From positions 2,304,001-2,368,000 of the forward strand of contig NZ_CP063203.1 in assembly GCF_019904255.1 (NCBI RefSeq): a stretch of 64,000 bases of DNA, given 5' to 3'. The notes beneath the pieces were generated by a model. It searched no databases, was not told the DNA's origin, and saw only the letters and a program-made list of their open reading frames with translations. The translations under genes were made by a program, and so were the position numbers. Below, piece after piece: positions 20,690-34,753 of this stretch. Every line of letters begins with the position of its first letter. Positions within the stretch are counted from its first letter, which is position 1. This stretch comes from Marixanthomonas sp. SCSIO 43207. GTDB lineage: Bacteria > Bacteroidota > Bacteroidia > Flavobacteriales > Flavobacteriaceae.

Positions 20690-20738
20690 TATACCCAAAT
20701 TTGGGTATACCATGGCTGTAGGAGTATACTTAAATTTG
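20690..20738 (+). promoter_or_regulatory. Promoter with a 20-bp palindromic operator (site A)
   Basis: TATACCCAAATTTGGGTATA (20690-20709) is a perfect palindrome. The -7 box TAAATTTG (20731-20738) follows the 18-bp core (20691-20708) after exactly 22 nt. The gene starts 59 nt further on. The palindrome is centred about 31 nt before the -7 box, where an activator would replace a missing -33 element. Site B at 29.8 kb has the same layout. Confidence 0.65.
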
Positions 20739-26117: not shown

Positions 26118-26615
26118 ATGGAATCACAGCATGCAATAGAGGCAAACCTTCTTACCAAATGGTTAAGAAGGGTAAAGCGAAAACAACTGGCTCACCGGTT
26201 AGCCGCTAAGAGAAAAGGAAACTATCATTTATTAATAGGTGTACCGGCAACCGTTCTAGCTGCTGTTACCGGTTTGTTTGCATTCTCTGCATCAGGAGTT
26301 GAGGATAAGTATTTTATCATAGGAGCCTTGAGTATTTTAGTATCTATCCTTACTTCTTTACAAACGTTTTTAAAGTTTGAAATAAAAGCCAAAAACCATC
26401 AAGATGCAGATGTAGGCTATGGGCAAATACGGCATGATATTGAAGAAGTACTTACCTTTATAAATGCGATGGATAAAAAAGAAATTAAAGCAAAGTGTGA
26501 AAAAATTAGATTGAAAATAGAAAACGTAAACAACCATTCTCCCTTAATACCGGAAACAATATGGAATAAAGCCAGACGGTTTTCAAAAGGGGATTTAGTT
26601 ATAGAAACCAATTAA
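26118..26615 (+). CDS. SLATT domain protein (two-helix membrane protein)
   Basis: A 165-residue protein with a basic N-terminal helix (WLRRVKRKQLAHRLAAKRKG), two adjacent transmembrane helices (about 36-57 and 66-86) and a C-terminal helical part. This layout matches SLATT proteins, proposed pore-forming effectors in nucleotide-signalling defence systems. Here no cyclase, SLOG, NTPase or toxin partner lies beside it, so it is an orphan and could have a housekeeping role. It faces the M23 peptidase gene tail to tail with 5 bases between stops. Confidence 0.7.
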   Translation: MESQHAIEANLLTKWLRRVKRKQLAHRLAAKRKGNYHLLIGVPATVLAAVTGLFAFSASGVEDKYFIIGALSILVSILTSLQTFLKFEIKAKNHQDADVGYGQIRHDIEEVLTFINAMDKKEIKAKCEKIRLKIENVNNHSPLIPETIWNKARRFSKGDLVIETN

Positions 26616-28731: not shown

Positions 28732-29256
28732 ATGAATTATAAAACCTTTGAAACCGAGCGATTGCTATTGCAGCCTACTTCTGTAAAGGATGCTCCCATG
28801 ATATACAATTTGCTCAACACCCCAAAATGGTTACAATACATTGGAGATCGTAATATTAAAACAGTTACAGAAGCCAAAAAGTATATTGAAAAAAGAATGC
28901 TGCCACAATTGCACCGATTGGGATATGGAAACTATACCGTGATACGGAAAGGTGATAAACAGAAGATAGGTTCGTGTGGGTTATACGATAGGGAAGGAGT
29001 AGAAGGAGTAGACATTGGTTTTGCCTTTTTACCTCAATACGAACAAAAAGGATATGCCTTTGAAGCTGCTAGTTGTATACTTGACGCAGCATTTTATGAG
29101 TTTAATATTCAAACGGTACAAGGATATACTACAAAACAAAATTACGGTTCGCAAAAACTATTGGAAAAACTCGGACTACTAAAAAAAGGGACCGTAACAC
29201 TACCCGACGATGACGAAGAACTTTTGTTGTACAAGATAGAAAAGGTACAAGACTAA
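28732..29256 (+). CDS. GNAT family N-acetyltransferase (RimJ-like)
   Basis: A 174-residue acetyltransferase of the RimJ/RimL type, which acetylates N-terminal or small-molecule amines using acetyl-CoA. It starts with FETERLLLQPTSVKDAPMIY and shows the acetyl-CoA-binding region around FLPQYEQKGYAFEAAS (the family's Q/RxxGxG/A appears as QKGYAF) and NYGSQKLLEKLGL near the end. The substrate cannot be deduced. Confidence 0.87.
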   Translation: MNYKTFETERLLLQPTSVKDAPMIYNLLNTPKWLQYIGDRNIKTVTEAKKYIEKRMLPQLHRLGYGNYTVIRKGDKQKIGSCGLYDREGVEGVDIGFAFLPQYEQKGYAFEAASCILDAAFYEFNIQTVQGYTTKQNYGSQKLLEKLGLLKKGTVTLPDDDEELLLYKIEKVQD

Positions 29257-29282
29257 TTGCATTATAATTTAAAAATCATAAA

Positions 29283-29747
29283 ATGAAAGCTATTTATACA
29301 ATTTGTATGGTATTGATAGGAATGGGGATAGGCTCAGCCTGCACCTGTGTTGAGATAAAATCACCTTTCAACCAGAAGGTGAAAAAAGCCTATGCTAAAA
29401 ACGATTTAATTTTTACCGGAAAGGTAGTCTCAAAAGAACAGATTAATACTGAATCTACTGCTGTTTTTGGAAAACAGGTACGTTTTACGTTTGAAATTAT
29501 TAAAGTAATAAAAGGAGCAAAAAAGGTAACTCAAGTTGAAGTTATTACCAATGAGGACTCAGCTAGTTGTGGATATGCCTTTGTAGTTGGTAAAAGCTAC
29601 TTGGTATATTCAAAAAGTACAGACTATTATGCAGAAGTCACAGGTTCAAAATATGATTATAGTACCGGTTTGTGTACTCGCAATAGCAGGTTGTCTTCGG
29701 TTCGTAAAAGAGAGCTAAGAATTCTCAATAGGCTTGATAGACAATAG
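29283..29747 (+). CDS. Exported TIMP/NTR-like domain protein
   Basis: A 154-residue protein with a signal peptide (1-19) directly followed by CTCVE, with the mature protein starting at or near the first Cys, as in netrin/TIMP-like domains. Further support: the strand ENDLIFTGKVVSKE-type phrase (NDLIFTGKVVSK), FEIIKVIKGAKK, and later cysteines in SASCGYAF and GLCTRN that could pair with the N-terminal ones. Bacterial members are of unknown function; the metalloprotease-inhibitor role of animal TIMPs should not be assumed. Confidence 0.7.
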   Translation: MKAIYTICMVLIGMGIGSACTCVEIKSPFNQKVKKAYAKNDLIFTGKVVSKEQINTESTAVFGKQVRFTFEIIKVIKGAKKVTQVEVITNEDSASCGYAFVVGKSYLVYSKSTDYYAEVTGSKYDYSTGLCTRNSRLSSVRKRELRILNRLDRQ

Positions 29748-29794
29748 TGTTGGGACATTATAATACTTTTAAAAAAAGATATTTCCTACAAAAT

Positions 29795-29842
29795 ATACCC
29801 AAATCTGGGTATTGGGTGAATCAATAAGACTACTTACATTTC
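29795..29842 (+). promoter_or_regulatory. Promoter with palindromic operator (site B)
   Basis: ATACCCAAATCTGGGTAT (29795-29812) differs from site A at 20.7 kb by one base. TACATTTC (29835-29842), a 7 of 8 match to the -7 box, follows after exactly 22 nt, as in site A. The start codon is 22 nt further on. Confidence 0.65.
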
Positions 29843-29864
29843 TTCAAAAGAAATTTAAGTTATA

Positions 29865-32174
29865 ATGCATACCTCTTTTAAATGGCACCTTTTCTATTCG
29901 GTATTACTCATTTTTTGTAATTTTTTTTCTACCGCTGCTCAAGACTGTACGCAGGACAGTAGAGTGACAAAAGCTAAACAGAACATGAGTGCGGGTGATA
30001 GTGGTTTAACCTGCGGTAATGTTGCAGAATTTTATGCAAAGCTCTGTCAGTGCAAAACAAAACCCTTAAAAAAAGCAGAAGCTTCCAATCTTAAAAAGCA
30101 ATTAGAAGCCATCAAAACTAGTTACAATGACTATGGTGTATATTGTAAAGATTTCGGAAAAATAACAGATTATGTACCAGATTGTCTTGTACAATCAAAT
30201 CAACAAGGATCAGGTGATGATGACCTTTTAAAAGCCTTAACAAGTCTTGCAGATAATGGAAATGCATCTTCTGCAGTTTCAGGAAGTGCAGATTGTAATT
30301 TTGCCGCTAGAGATAAGTTTGGTAGTACTTCGTTTTCAAATTCAGGAGCAGAACATGCAGCCAATCAATATGAAGGCTATCGGTGTCATTGCATAAACGG
30401 AACGGCTCAAAAACAATTTGATGGTTCAGCATTTTCGGTTAAACAACTTAAAAATTTACGTCAGAATTATTATAACGTCAAAGGACCGAGTGATCCAGGC
30501 TTGAGTCCTTTACCATCAAAATGCGCAGACAGTCCGCGAGGTGGTTCATCTAGCGGAAAAGTTGGTCCAAAACCTATTGCTAGACAAAACATAGGTGAAA
30601 TAGTTACTGGTAATCAATTAAGCCGTGATCTTACAGATTTTATGGGATCATTGGCTAGTGAAAGTTCAAACCCCGGTATTAAGGCACTAGCCGAAGAAAT
30701 GCAACAAAATAGTGCTACAATTGATCAAATAAGAGCAGATGCTTCCATATTTGGCCCAATGGATGAAACAACGGATCAAATGCTAAATATGGGAGAAAAT
30801 GTTATGCAAGCCATTGCCATTGGAAAAGCTATTTTTGGAGTTAATAAAAGTAAAAAACCTGAATTAACTGCTGCTCAAAAACAGTTACGGTCTTCAATGG
30901 GTAGTTTGAGTCGTAAAATACGTATGATTTATGATGAAGTAACAGCTATTCCATACTATTATGAGGCTAATCAAGAAACATTACAAGAATTAAACAAACT
31001 AGAACAACGGTTGCTTGAATATGAATATGCAACTGCTTCAGCAAGATTGATATACTTAGAATATATTGTATTTGACGGGTTTCCAACACAAACTGAAATG
31101 GCAACGATAAAATCTACAATAAATACGATGCCTATAGAGCAAGTTTTGAAACGAATTGAAACCATTCAAAACCAGTACAATACAGACGATATGCCTCATA
31201 TGGCTAATGCTTCAGAAGGGTTGGCAGGAACTTTTGACAAAATAAATATGTATAAAGCAAGGTGTTATGCTGCACTTGGTATGAAAGATAAAGCTGAACA
31301 AATTAGAAAAAACCTAACCTATAATGTTGCAATTAATGATGCTATTAAATTAACGCAAGAATCATTTAAAAATAAAGATTATTATTCTACTGCTCAATAT
31401 GCTTCGCTAGTTCAAGATCATTTTCAGAATGAAACCGTTGTAAGAACCATATATCCAGACTTGATAAGTCTTACATACAATTTTGATGGGATACGAAGAT
31501 TTGAAATAGGTTATTTAGCTGCATTGGGTGTAATTGCTAATATAAAGACCAATCAAATAACTCAAGCAGATCAAGCATTAAAAGGCTTGAAGAGAATGCA
31601 CACTACTTTTGAAGAAACCTATGAATATTATAGAGATGAGGTGAGTAAACGAAAAAAAATGAATTTATCAGATGAAGAGTTTCGCCTAGAAGTATTAAGA
31701 AGTAAAGCTATGCTGAATGTAGCTAATGCACACTTGGCAGCTAAAAAAGGAAATCCTCAAGAAGCTCTATCTTTAATAATAGAGGCCAAAAAGCTATATG
31801 ATGAGGCTCCCGAATTGGCAATTCAAAAGTTTGATGCTTGGTTTTTATACCAAAAGCTAGAAATCTTAATGACACTTCAAAAGTTTGAAGAAGCCAAAGA
31901 TGTCATTAGAGATTTAAAACAAAATCATGCTATCAATGCAATTGCAGGTGTCACTAATTATGATAGTAATAATCTAGGCTATTTCAATGCATATATTCGG
32001 TTTAAAAAAGAAGATTATAAGGGTGCTTTATTTGCTTTAAAAATTTTGAAAAAGCAACAGCCCACTAATCCTAAAATTTATGCACTTGAAGAAGAAGTAT
32101 ACAAAGCTCTAGATAATACGAACCTGGCTGAGAAAAGCCATCAAAAATATTTGGAAACACTTCAAAAACTTTAA
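29865..32174 (+). CDS. Secreted cysteine-module and TPR protein
   Basis: A 769-residue protein with a signal peptide (1-26, FSTAAQ). The N-terminal third holds two related cysteine-containing modules: one with YAKLCQCKTK followed by KKQLEAIKTSYNDYGVYC (about 52-92), the other with YEGYRCHCINGT followed by VKQLKNLRQNYYNV (about 168-205). A helical region with the acidic, Gln-rich TPR-like repeats fills the rest to the C-terminus (for example EALSLIIEAKKLYDEAPE and DYKGALFALKILKKQQPTNP). It is probably a periplasmic or surface scaffold. It forms an operon with the next gene (28 bases apart) under promoter site B. Family not recognised. Confidence 0.7.
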   Translation: MHTSFKWHLFYSVLLIFCNFFSTAAQDCTQDSRVTKAKQNMSAGDSGLTCGNVAEFYAKLCQCKTKPLKKAEASNLKKQLEAIKTSYNDYGVYCKDFGKITDYVPDCLVQSNQQGSGDDDLLKALTSLADNGNASSAVSGSADCNFAARDKFGSTSFSNSGAEHAANQYEGYRCHCINGTAQKQFDGSAFSVKQLKNLRQNYYNVKGPSDPGLSPLPSKCADSPRGGSSSGKVGPKPIARQNIGEIVTGNQLSRDLTDFMGSLASESSNPGIKALAEEMQQNSATIDQIRADASIFGPMDETTDQMLNMGENVMQAIAIGKAIFGVNKSKKPELTAAQKQLRSSMGSLSRKIRMIYDEVTAIPYYYEANQETLQELNKLEQRLLEYEYATASARLIYLEYIVFDGFPTQTEMATIKSTINTMPIEQVLKRIETIQNQYNTDDMPHMANASEGLAGTFDKINMYKARCYAALGMKDKAEQIRKNLTYNVAINDAIKLTQESFKNKDYYSTAQYASLVQDHFQNETVVRTIYPDLISLTYNFDGIRRFEIGYLAALGVIANIKTNQITQADQALKGLKRMHTTFEETYEYYRDEVSKRKKMNLSDEEFRLEVLRSKAMLNVANAHLAAKKGNPQEALSLIIEAKKLYDEAPELAIQKFDAWFLYQKLEILMTLQKFEEAKDVIRDLKQNHAINAIAGVTNYDSNNLGYFNAYIRFKKEDYKGALFALKILKKQQPTNPKIYALEEEVYKALDNTNLAEKSHQKYLETLQKL

Positions 32175-32202
32175 TTACCATATTTATTTAAACCTTTTTA
32201 CT

Positions 32203-33492
32203 ATGAAAAATACAAAGCTATCCATACTATTAGTTACGTTATTATGTTTAGTACAAATCATACCTATAAATGCACAAGAAACCCCCGATTTAGGTATTAT
32301 GCCTATTTATAAATTCACCAACAATCAAGTGTTGTTTGTTGATGGGACAGCGGGAGAACTTAAAAGTTTTGCTGTACTCGATCAACCGGTTATGGCAGTT
32401 GCAGTCAATAAAGAGACAGGAATGAGTTATGCTGCCAGCCGGCATAGTGTTTATAAAATAGAAACAGAAAGCGGAGAAGTAGTAGATAGTTATCAATTTT
32501 TTGATATTCTAGAAAAAGGACCAGAAGACCTTACCGATCCAAATATGATGATTATTCCTAGGGGAATTACCAATAAGGGACAAGTAATCGTTATGCATAA
32601 TGATGCTTTTAGAAATCTACAAAAAAAGCAACAAGAGCTTACCTCAAAAATGAAAAATGCTTCTACAAATGAAATAATGGAGTTAAGTAAGCAACTATCA
32701 GAAATTTCTCCAAAATTAGCTGAAGCCGGTAAAAAACAAACCTATTATTTGATAGACTTTTCAACCAAGTCAAAGCGAATTTTTAATGAATATGATATCA
32801 CTAAAGAAAGGTTTTTAGCACTACGCAATAATGGCACCTTTATACTTCACGACAAGAGCAAGCAATCTATAAAATTTATAGATGTAAATACGAATGAGGT
32901 TATAAAAGAAGTATCATCTTCAATATTATATGACCAATTTCCTGAATTACGTAAATACAGTAGAAACGCTACTGTTAGACTTTTATCAGACAACCTTTTA
33001 TTATATAACTTTATAGGAAATGGAGAAGGCGTTCGGTTCCTATATAATTTAGAAAATAATGAGATTCTCTTTAGTGAAAGTTATGAAGGAATTACCAATA
33101 TAGGCTATCCCTTATATTATGAAAACACATCAGAATATTTATTTGGAGAAAAAGATTGTTCAGTAGGTCCTATGCCAGATGCACCTGATTTTGGTTCACC
33201 AGCTGGTACTTCCAAAAAGAAAATGGCCGAATGGCAAGAACAGATGACTAAGAAACAAAATGAATGGCAAAAAGCCATGAAAGAATGGCAAGATGCATCA
33301 TCAGATCCTGATAATTGCGATTTAAAGTTATATAGTGATATAAATAAAGAAAACTTGGTAATGAAAATTCCGAAAGCTTCTTTTGCCAGCATATACAACA
33401 ACAACTTTGCTTTGATTAATAGAATGTATGAATTGGTTTTATATAACGTTGAAACACAAGAGCCTGTTTGGACTATTGATATTGATTTTTAA
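32203..33492 (+). CDS. Secreted propeller-like protein, partner of the TPR protein
   Basis: A 429-residue protein with a signal peptide (1-24, INAQ). Its beta-rich body (LFVDGTAGELKSFAVLDQPVM-type repeats, cut here for length) suggests a WD40/YVTN-like propeller. Two charged coiled-coil insertions interrupt it: around 143-175 (KKQQELTSKMKNAS) and around 344-365 (EWQEQMTKKQNEWQKAMKEW). Two cysteines (ca. 322 and 375) may pair. Second gene of the site-B operon; likely partner of the TPR scaffold. Family not recognised. Confidence 0.65.
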   Translation: MKNTKLSILLVTLLCLVQIIPINAQETPDLGIMPIYKFTNNQVLFVDGTAGELKSFAVLDQPVMAVAVNKETGMSYAASRHSVYKIETESGEVVDSYQFFDILEKGPEDLTDPNMMIIPRGITNKGQVIVMHNDAFRNLQKKQQELTSKMKNASTNEIMELSKQLSEISPKLAEAGKKQTYYLIDFSTKSKRIFNEYDITKERFLALRNNGTFILHDKSKQSIKFIDVNTNEVIKEVSSSILYDQFPELRKYSRNATVRLLSDNLLLYNFIGNGEGVRFLYNLENNEILFSESYEGITNIGYPLYYENTSEYLFGEKDCSVGPMPDAPDFGSPAGTSKKKMAEWQEQMTKKQNEWQKAMKEWQDASSDPDNCDLKLYSDINKENLVMKIPKASFASIYNNNFALINRMYELVLYNVETQEPVWTIDIDF

Positions 33493-33502
33493 ATAAAACA
33501 TA

Positions 33503-33640
33503 TTAAAACAACTCAAAAACATATCCTAATAACCAATAAAGAATAATAAATACCACGATTGTACCAATGCAACCGCATTTGCCGCCACCAATTTTTTTGG
33601 CACCCCAAGCGGCTGCTATAATTCGTAAAAGTTTTTTCAT
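33503..33640 (-). CDS. 45-residue membrane peptide, flavobacterial type
   Basis: The frame runs from ATG at 33640 to TAA at 33503-33505. The product starts MKKLLRIIAAAWGAKKIGGG, then KCGC and one transmembrane helix (about 26-43). The amphipathic, glycine-rich start plus a CxC just before the helix resembles small conserved peptides seen in Flavobacteriaceae. A TATCTTTA box (minus strand, 33667-33660) is well placed 19 nt before the start. Converges on the propeller gene, 10 bases apart. Confidence 0.65.
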   Translation of the reverse strand: MKKLLRIIAAAWGAKKIGGGKCGCIGTIVVFIILYWLLGYVFELF

Positions 33641-33708
33641 AATAATGTTTGTATACTACTAAAGATACAATTAATTATAACTGAAAACGCAAAAGGTCAT
33701 ACAAAAAA

Positions 33709-33732
33709 AATCCCGTCATTACTGACGGGATT
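33709..33732 (-). terminator. Terminator of the YtxH-like gene
   Basis: A perfect 10-bp stem AATCCCGTCA/TGACGGGATT with a 4-nt loop; on the minus strand it is followed by eight T residues. It lies 24 bases after the YtxH-like stop. Confidence 0.88.
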
Positions 33733-33756
33733 ATAATGCATTTTATCTAACGGTAG

Positions 33757-33996
33757 TTAGCTTTTTGCTTGCTCAACTTTTTCTTTTGCAGTCCCTTTAA
33801 GTTCGTTGTACTTTTCAGAAATAGATGATTCTACATCTTTAGCCGTATCTTTAATTCGGTCTCCTGCGTTGCTAACTTTAGACTTTAAATTTTTTTTCTG
33901 CTCGGGTGACATACGTTTATATTGCCACCACGCCAATGCGCCTGCACCAATTCCTACTAATGCTGCTGCTATTCCTTTTTTTTGTGAATTTTTCAT
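33757..33996 (-). CDS. YtxH-like small stress protein
   Basis: A 79-residue protein: a hydrophobic, glycine-rich N-terminal segment (GIAAALVGIGAGALAWW) then a charged amphipathic helix (RIKDTAKDVESSISEKYNEL). This matches YtxH/general-stress-like small proteins, which are of unknown biochemical role and often induced by stress. It has its own terminator and a TATCTTTA-type box (minus strand, 34034-34027) upstream. Confidence 0.7.
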   Translation of the reverse strand: MKNSQKKGIAAALVGIGAGALAWWQYKRMSPEQKKNLKSKVSNAGDRIKDTAKDVESSISEKYNELKGTAKEKVEQAKS

Positions 33997-34270
33997 AGTT
34001 TTTTCTTTTTATTGTTACGTTGTAAATAAAGATACATCAAATTTGAGAGGTGTAATAACTTCATAATCACTTTAATATTTTTTTAGGCAGAAGTGTTAAT
34101 AAAAGTAACTCACATTAACATTTACGCACCATTGTAAACTATCAACACGACATTTTTTTGAATACAGAATTCCTTTCAATAGGCTGGTTTCAGTACCATT
34201 TAAAAAAAACTTTACAAAAAGTGTGATTTTTTTGCCACCTTGAACTCTAATAAGGTAAAGCAAGTATTTC

Positions 34271-34753
34271 ATGCAAGAACAAGCGTTTACAACCATCATA
34301 AAAGATAATGAAGGAATTCTTTATAAAGTTACCCGCTTGTTTACACAAACCGAAGCTGATCAACAGGATTTGTATCAAGAAATTGTCATCAATTTGTGGA
34401 AAGGGTTTGGCAGTTTTAGAGGAGATGCAAAAGTAAGTACTTGGATGTATCGCATTGCTTTAAATACGGCTGTTTTATATTCAAAAAAAGAAAAACGAAA
34501 AGGGCAAAAGGTGTCGCTAGATGGTATAACCTTAGTTAATGAGGTTTATGATCCTATACTCGAACAGCAATTAAAACTTGTTTACAAACACATACGAGAG
34601 CTCAATGATGTTGAAAAGGGGATAATTTTTCTTTTTCTGGAAGGAAAAAAGTATGAAACCATTGCTTCAATCACCGGGCTTAGCACAAGTAATGTAGGCA
34701 CTCGAATGGCACGTATTAAAGAAAAACTTAAAAATAAGATCACAAAAAAGTAA
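34271..34753 (+). CDS. ECF-type RNA polymerase sigma factor
   Basis: A 160-residue sigma-70 family protein with region 2 (YKVTRLFTQTEADQQDLYQEIVINLWKGF-type sequence, about 17-45; WMYRIALNTAVL near 59-70) and region 4 (IRELNDVEKGIIFLFLEG...IASITGLSTSNVGTRMARIK, about 106-152). It lacks regions 1 and 3, as in ECF sigmas. The membrane protein gene that starts 5 bases later is likely its regulator or partner. Target promoters are unknown. Confidence 0.9.
   Translation: MQEQAFTTIIKDNEGILYKVTRLFTQTEADQQDLYQEIVINLWKGFGSFRGDAKVSTWMYRIALNTAVLYSKKEKRKGQKVSLDGITLVNEVYDPILEQQLKLVYKHIRELNDVEKGIIFLFLEGKKYETIASITGLSTSNVGTRMARIKEKLKNKITKK

Follow-up and report, generated by a model that had tools for sequence, protein, structure and literature searches.

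Within the window analyzed here, i.e., the whole 64 kb stretch of the genome of Marixanthomonas sp. SCSIO 43207, two genes lie on a shared strand with a gap of 28 bp between their open reading frames, which encode proteins of 769 and 429 residues as given in a preliminary description of this DNA (Table 1). Each gene occurs in one copy in the 2.96 Mb single-contig host genome. It was previously suggested that both proteins are exported, and this is consistent with the signal-like hydrophobic N-termini, read by eye in both, and with the absence of any strong hydrophobic stretch past the N-terminus in either sequence. Inspection by eye shows no lipobox at either N-terminus; in the gene 1 protein the residues TAAQD preceding C28 do not fit, and the gene 2 protein has no cysteine around the cleavage region.

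Table 1. Features of the gene pair and of its upstream region (positions in the window).
Feature	Position	Strand	Basis
Candidate operator, perfect palindrome ATACCCAAATCTGGGTAT (ATACCCA-AATC-TGGGTAT), 7-2-7 layout	29795..29812	+	exact-pattern count
TACATTTC, resembles the Bacteroidota -7 element TAnnTTTG	29835..29842	+	sequence; weak, picked after the fact
Gene 1, exported TPR protein, 769 aa (P0001)	29865..32174	+	ORF, Pfam, structure model
Signal-peptide-like N-terminus of gene 1, approximately residues 1-25, without lipobox	29865..29939	+	by-eye reading
Cysteine module 1, residues 28-107, CxC at 61-63	29946..30185	+	Cys spacing, alignment
Cysteine module 2, residues 144-220, CxC at 174-176	30294..30524	+	Cys spacing; homology to module 1 unproved
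Conserved core of gene 1, residues 245-769, TPR solenoid from approximately residue 336	30597..32171	+	homology, model
Gene 2, exported beta-propeller protein, 429 aa (P0002)	32203..33492	+	ORF, structure model, homology
Propeller helical insert 1 (hairpin), residues 134-175	32602..32727	+	model; absent from G487 relative
Propeller helical insert 2 (long helix), residues 338-366	33214..33300	+	model; retained in all four pairs

The C-terminal part of the gene 1 protein is modeled as a TPR solenoid covering approximately residues 336–769, and residues 1–252 lie mostly below a pLDDT of 50. The mean pLDDT values of 59.4 for this model and of 70.6 for that of gene 2 mean modest confidence; the models are based on three sequences, and those of the more distant genome G487 (see below) were not included. 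Pfam TPR matches in gene 1 and its relatives are weak and stay under the gathering score. In a structural comparison, residues 355–769 aligned with LGN (Z 15.8, rmsd 5.2, 287 aligned), and the tandem helix-turn-helix solenoid that characterizes the TPR repeat superfamily is present in the model, in agreement with the TPR-like repeats earlier noted behind the cysteine modules. The likeness to LGN and to generic TPR solenoids is one of repeat architecture only, the gene 1 protein being exported and paired. The second Foldseek match (E 5.4e-05) is LbcA (PDB 7rqf), a TPR lipoprotein that serves the protease CtpA as an adaptor in the periplasm. However, the TM-score is only 0.18–0.24 with an rmsd of 24, the gene 1 protein has no lipobox and its partner is a propeller and not a protease, nor does any protease gene adjoin the pair among the open reading frames of the window.

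The gene 2 protein is predicted to fold into a beta-propeller broken by a helical hairpin and by a long helix (Table 1), in line with the former reading of a propeller interrupted twice by coiled coils. In structural comparison it came closest to the heavy chain of methylamine dehydrogenase (Z 14.2, rmsd 4.7, 283 aligned, 11% identity), a seven-bladed propeller that the model matches over residues 31–429; the circular arrangement of four-stranded blades typical of this fold is seen in the model. The likeness is restricted to the fold and no dehydrogenase partner adjoins the pair. A C-terminal motif W/Y-x2-D-x-D-F/Y is common to all four propellers identified. When both models were compared with the PDB, the matches were common chains of the TPR and propeller type, and no single functional family stood out.

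The gene 1 protein contains exactly two CxC sites, both within the first 220 residues, each with an upstream cysteine at a distance of 33 or 30 residues and with a downstream cysteine at exactly 44 residues in both. Two modules of the form Y-x3-C-x-C ... L-x2-L-x3-Y-x2-Y had been proposed for this region. Two CxC modules are indeed present, but the consensus is loose and the copies deviate from it, copy 1 carrying Y-x3-C-x-C and L-x2-I-x3-Y-x2-Y and copy 2 carrying Y-x4-C-x-C and L-x2-L-x3-Y-Y. The score of a plain alignment of the two copies was reached by 0.62 of shuffles and is no better than chance. For the single module of the relative P0004, the score against copy 1 was reached by 0.0015 of shuffles (0.0045 with fixed cysteines) and the weaker one against copy 2 by 0.0115 (0.037 with fixed cysteines). 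As the P0004 module clearly recognizes copy 1 and, with less significance, copy 2 as well, it is plausible, not proved, from the sequences that the two modules arose by duplication. In P0004 further cysteines are located 32 and 15 residues ahead of the CxC site and 42 and 53 behind it; in the relative P0003 they are located 34 and 13 residues ahead and none is found close behind. A module profile, built from the very sequences found here (window and relatives), detected no other protein in 60 genomes, no PDB entry and no convincing Pfam family.

The pair was subsequently compared with described systems. Curated families (Pfam, NCBIfam, PHROGs, PADLOC) yielded weak TPR or chance matches only, and thereby none of the known complexes that a profile match might have revealed. 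The folds are known; a description of the pair itself was not found in the literature. Bacteroidota of the host group commonly carry a type IX secretion system, and this system in Porphyromonas gingivalis includes the closest described protein to the pair, PG1058. This predicted lipoprotein, proposed to act as a scaffold, is located on the periplasmic face of the outer membrane and carries TPR and propeller domains in a single chain, together with CRD and OmpA_C-like domains (PMC5053529). Both systems combine TPR and beta-propeller domains in Bacteroidota, in the window split over two exported proteins. Unlike PG1058, the pair is rare, has an exchangeable N-terminus and lacks a lipobox and an OmpA-like domain; a Pfam search at E up to 1 gave no match to an OmpA_C-like peptidoglycan-binding domain for the two proteins or for their relatives. 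Since this domain and the lipobox are missing, the pair is, judged by its sequences, not a member of the PG1058 family. By analogy, it may serve as a scaffold in a PG1058-like manner. The pair might also be a specialized auxiliary part of one of the known envelope machines of Bacteroidota, e.g., a split functional relative of PG1058 devoted to a particular substrate. The location and domain combination of PG1058 (PMC5053529) speak for this explanation, as does the common occurrence of type IX secretion in the host group. We nevertheless regard it as improbable, as neither an OmpA-like domain nor a Pfam propeller family is matched at E up to 1, inspection by eye shows no lipobox, and a core part of a machine would be far more widespread.

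A similar comparison applies to the BAM proteins BamB (propeller) and BamD (TPR), which are lipoproteins of a near-universal machine. Here, too, a periplasmic propeller is combined with a TPR protein, and Foldseek matched the propeller model to BamB chains, among others. However, these propeller matches are generic, the proteins of the window have no lipobox, and no match to the curated BamB and BamD families was obtained at E up to 1 in Pfam and NCBIfam. Moreover, a core machine such as BAM is expected to be widely conserved, whereas the distribution of the pair is very sparse.

Relatives of the pair were detected in two further genomes. A propeller search in 397 genomes of the family identified two propeller copies on one contig of the Flavobacteriaceae MAG NORP20 (G342; NVXD01000014.1), each directly 3' of a gene 1 homolog. 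A search of the phylum with the propeller profile added a fourth pair from a genome of a different class, G487, where the propeller gene likewise adjoins a gene 1 homolog (window versus G487: E 2e-81 for gene 1, E 2e-39 for gene 2). The two genes are adjacent and identically ordered in all four distinct pairs; in two of them they are separated by 28 and 5 bp, and in the other two the reading frames overlap by 8 and 4 bp. Pairwise identities amount to 24.6–31.3% for the core and to 22.5–29.5% for the propeller. In all genomes searched, no full-length homolog of gene 1 or gene 2 was found without its partner, so that a separation of the genes in relatives, named beforehand as an argument against a common system, was not seen. 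The strict pairing together with the close junctions favors a functional unit.

The pair is rare. A core-pattern scan of 84,980 species genomes returned three contigs only, that of NORP20 and two from a MAG labeled as Sneathiella; the latter two were not added to the pair count. These contigs (NORP203; L012 and L014) carry the same pairs and transposases as NORP20 and are probably mis-binned. The pair is absent from six other genomes of the genus, one of which is merely 55% complete. No further pairs emerged from 1,975 genome scans with both proteins, profiles and flanking DNA (rescanned genomes counted again), and no match was obtained in the genome contigs of close relatives searched with P0001 alone or in viral contigs, phages and plasmids; at 22–31% identity, more distant members may escape these searches. 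Five weak TPR-only matches (G042, G1110, G782, G1196, G664; E 8.5e-7 to 8.6e-4) cover the core only partially and were rejected; the loci in G782, G1196 and G664 encode different TPR proteins without a propeller neighbor. A match of P0002 in G047 (E 1e-4) falls within a 258-aa exported protein without TPR partner and was dropped, and another one in G144 has an E of 3e-4 over 66 positions. As a side observation, the contig end L046:1-60 of genome G005 translates to LHVRSRRQRQMCIRDS and looks like sequencing-adapter contamination.

The TPR core and the propeller are constant across the four pairs, whereas the N-terminus of the gene 1 protein differs between them. Two cysteine modules are found in the protein of the window, one in P0004, a partial one in P0003, there followed by a charged and probably coiled stretch, and none in P0007, which has an unrelated N-terminus without CxC and of beta-rich appearance by sequence. 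The double cysteine module, after which the preliminary description had named the system, is on this sequence comparison a local variant and not its hallmark.

The sister genomes retain the acetyltransferase gene on one flank and the segment beyond position 33503 on the other, but the intervening genes differ, comprising, as read by eye, metallo-beta-lactamase-like, lipocalin-like, WG-repeat-like and other genes. This variable interval corresponds to positions 28732-34271 of the window and to its counterparts in G001, G002, G003 and G006; its flanks are recognizable and its inner genes mostly encode exported proteins. Among these, just upstream of the pair (29283-29747), is an exported 154-aa protein with a TIMP/netrin-like Pfam match (E 2.2e-07), which also has homologs in the corresponding interval of sister species. 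Elsewhere in the window (26118-26615), a 165-aa protein shows a weak match, under the cut-off, to the two-TM effector family SLATT_4 (E 0.0011). In G487, five consecutive LuxR-type (GerE) regulator genes lie approximately 2.5 kb upstream of the pair (L011:13296-15958), two of which have PAS-like or unrecognized N-terminal parts. The NORP20 pairs sit, by eye, among transposase-like genes.

The patchy distribution suggests that the pair moved horizontally between genomes. It is the only indication to this effect because the composition is ordinary, the gene trees are not significant and no element was mapped: the trinucleotide composition of the pair stays within the range of the window and is not clearly foreign, and the quartet trees of the two proteins share their best topology without significance. 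Patchiness, transposase-like neighbors, an N-terminal domain that varies and the presence of two divergent pairs next to each other in a single genome would also fit a role of the pair in conflict between cells or with phage, the swapped N-terminus being the variable recognition part. We consider such a role very improbable: the PADLOC anti-phage models gave no match better than E 0.039, at a low score, no toxin or nuclease domain was matched in Pfam or PHROGs, and the variation is located at the N-terminus, unlike in polymorphic toxins, which vary at the C-terminus.

A perfect palindrome is located 52 bp ahead of the start codon of gene 1. Exact matches to ATACCCA-N4-TGGGTAT occur twice in the window versus none in 100 shuffles, the second copy (20691-20708) lying ahead of an exported Lcl_C-domain protein. 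Boxes resembling TAnnTTTG, TACATTTC and TAAATTTG (the latter at 20731-20738), each follow 22 bp past the palindrome. In G001 the palindrome is also found, within the corresponding variable interval, ahead of an exported gene; in G003 (core of 16 bases) it precedes another exported gene and in G002 a stretch without assigned gene. Not every copy precedes an exported gene, because a further one in the host genome lies between a cytochrome-oxidase-like and a ruvB-like gene. Outside the window, the palindrome was noted at L043:4473-4490, L040:802-819, L038:1504-1521 and L034:705, and in this genus it often lies before exported genes. Half sites upstream of P0004 (approximately 65–70 bp) and P0007 (approximately 175 bp) may be due to chance. 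As a guess, the "promoter site B" under which the preliminary description had placed both genes may be this palindrome. Its 7-2-7 layout resembles that of NarL-type operators, and the NarL family includes SsrB, a regulator of Salmonella. SsrB recognizes a degenerate 18-bp palindrome (PMC5562331). A literature search on the palindrome yielded no Bacteroidota regulator.

The presence of the same palindrome at unrelated exported genes, including one from the corresponding variable interval in a sister species, fits an explanation in which the pair is co-transcribed cargo of an exported-protein regulon, i.e., two independent binding proteins that form no physical complex. This seems rather unlikely to us, as the pairing persists across two classes at 22–31% identity and the reading frames overlap in two of the four pairs.

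We tentatively prefer, from sequences and models, to read the pair as a scaffold or receptor of two subunits that resides in the periplasm, has an exchangeable N-terminal domain for recognition and has moved horizontally; this reading is possible and by no means assured. The signal-like N-termini favor the envelope. TPR solenoids and propellers are both folds that bind partners, so a role as scaffold or receptor whose N-terminal recognition domain can be exchanged explains the findings most economically. Gene 1 and gene 2 would form one transcription unit encoding a periplasmic or envelope-associated two-subunit assembly. The C-terminal TPR solenoid would be the constant docking part that binds the propeller, the projecting helical inserts of which may contribute to the contact, and the N-terminal part, here with two disulfide-type cysteine modules, would act as the exchangeable domain that recognizes a ligand. 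The unit might travel between genomes as a two-gene cassette, and its probable switch would be a NarL/LuxR-type regulator acting on the upstream palindrome. The proposal of a new envelope complex is thus supported in part: no description of the pair and no separation of its genes was found in the searches made, but the complex and its location are deduced from signal-like N-termini and gene order. The fuller version, a mobile modular envelope receptor consisting of an obligate TPR-propeller pair with interchangeable recognition N-termini across distant lineages of the Bacteroidota phylum and embedded in a NarL/LuxR-type exported-protein regulon, is in our view doubtful.

If the complex forms, it would represent an undescribed envelope scaffold that combines a constant core with exchangeable recognition domains and that is distributed patchily over distant lineages. 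Its size of two genes permits direct testing, and the palindrome provides a handle on a possible exported-protein regulon in the genus.
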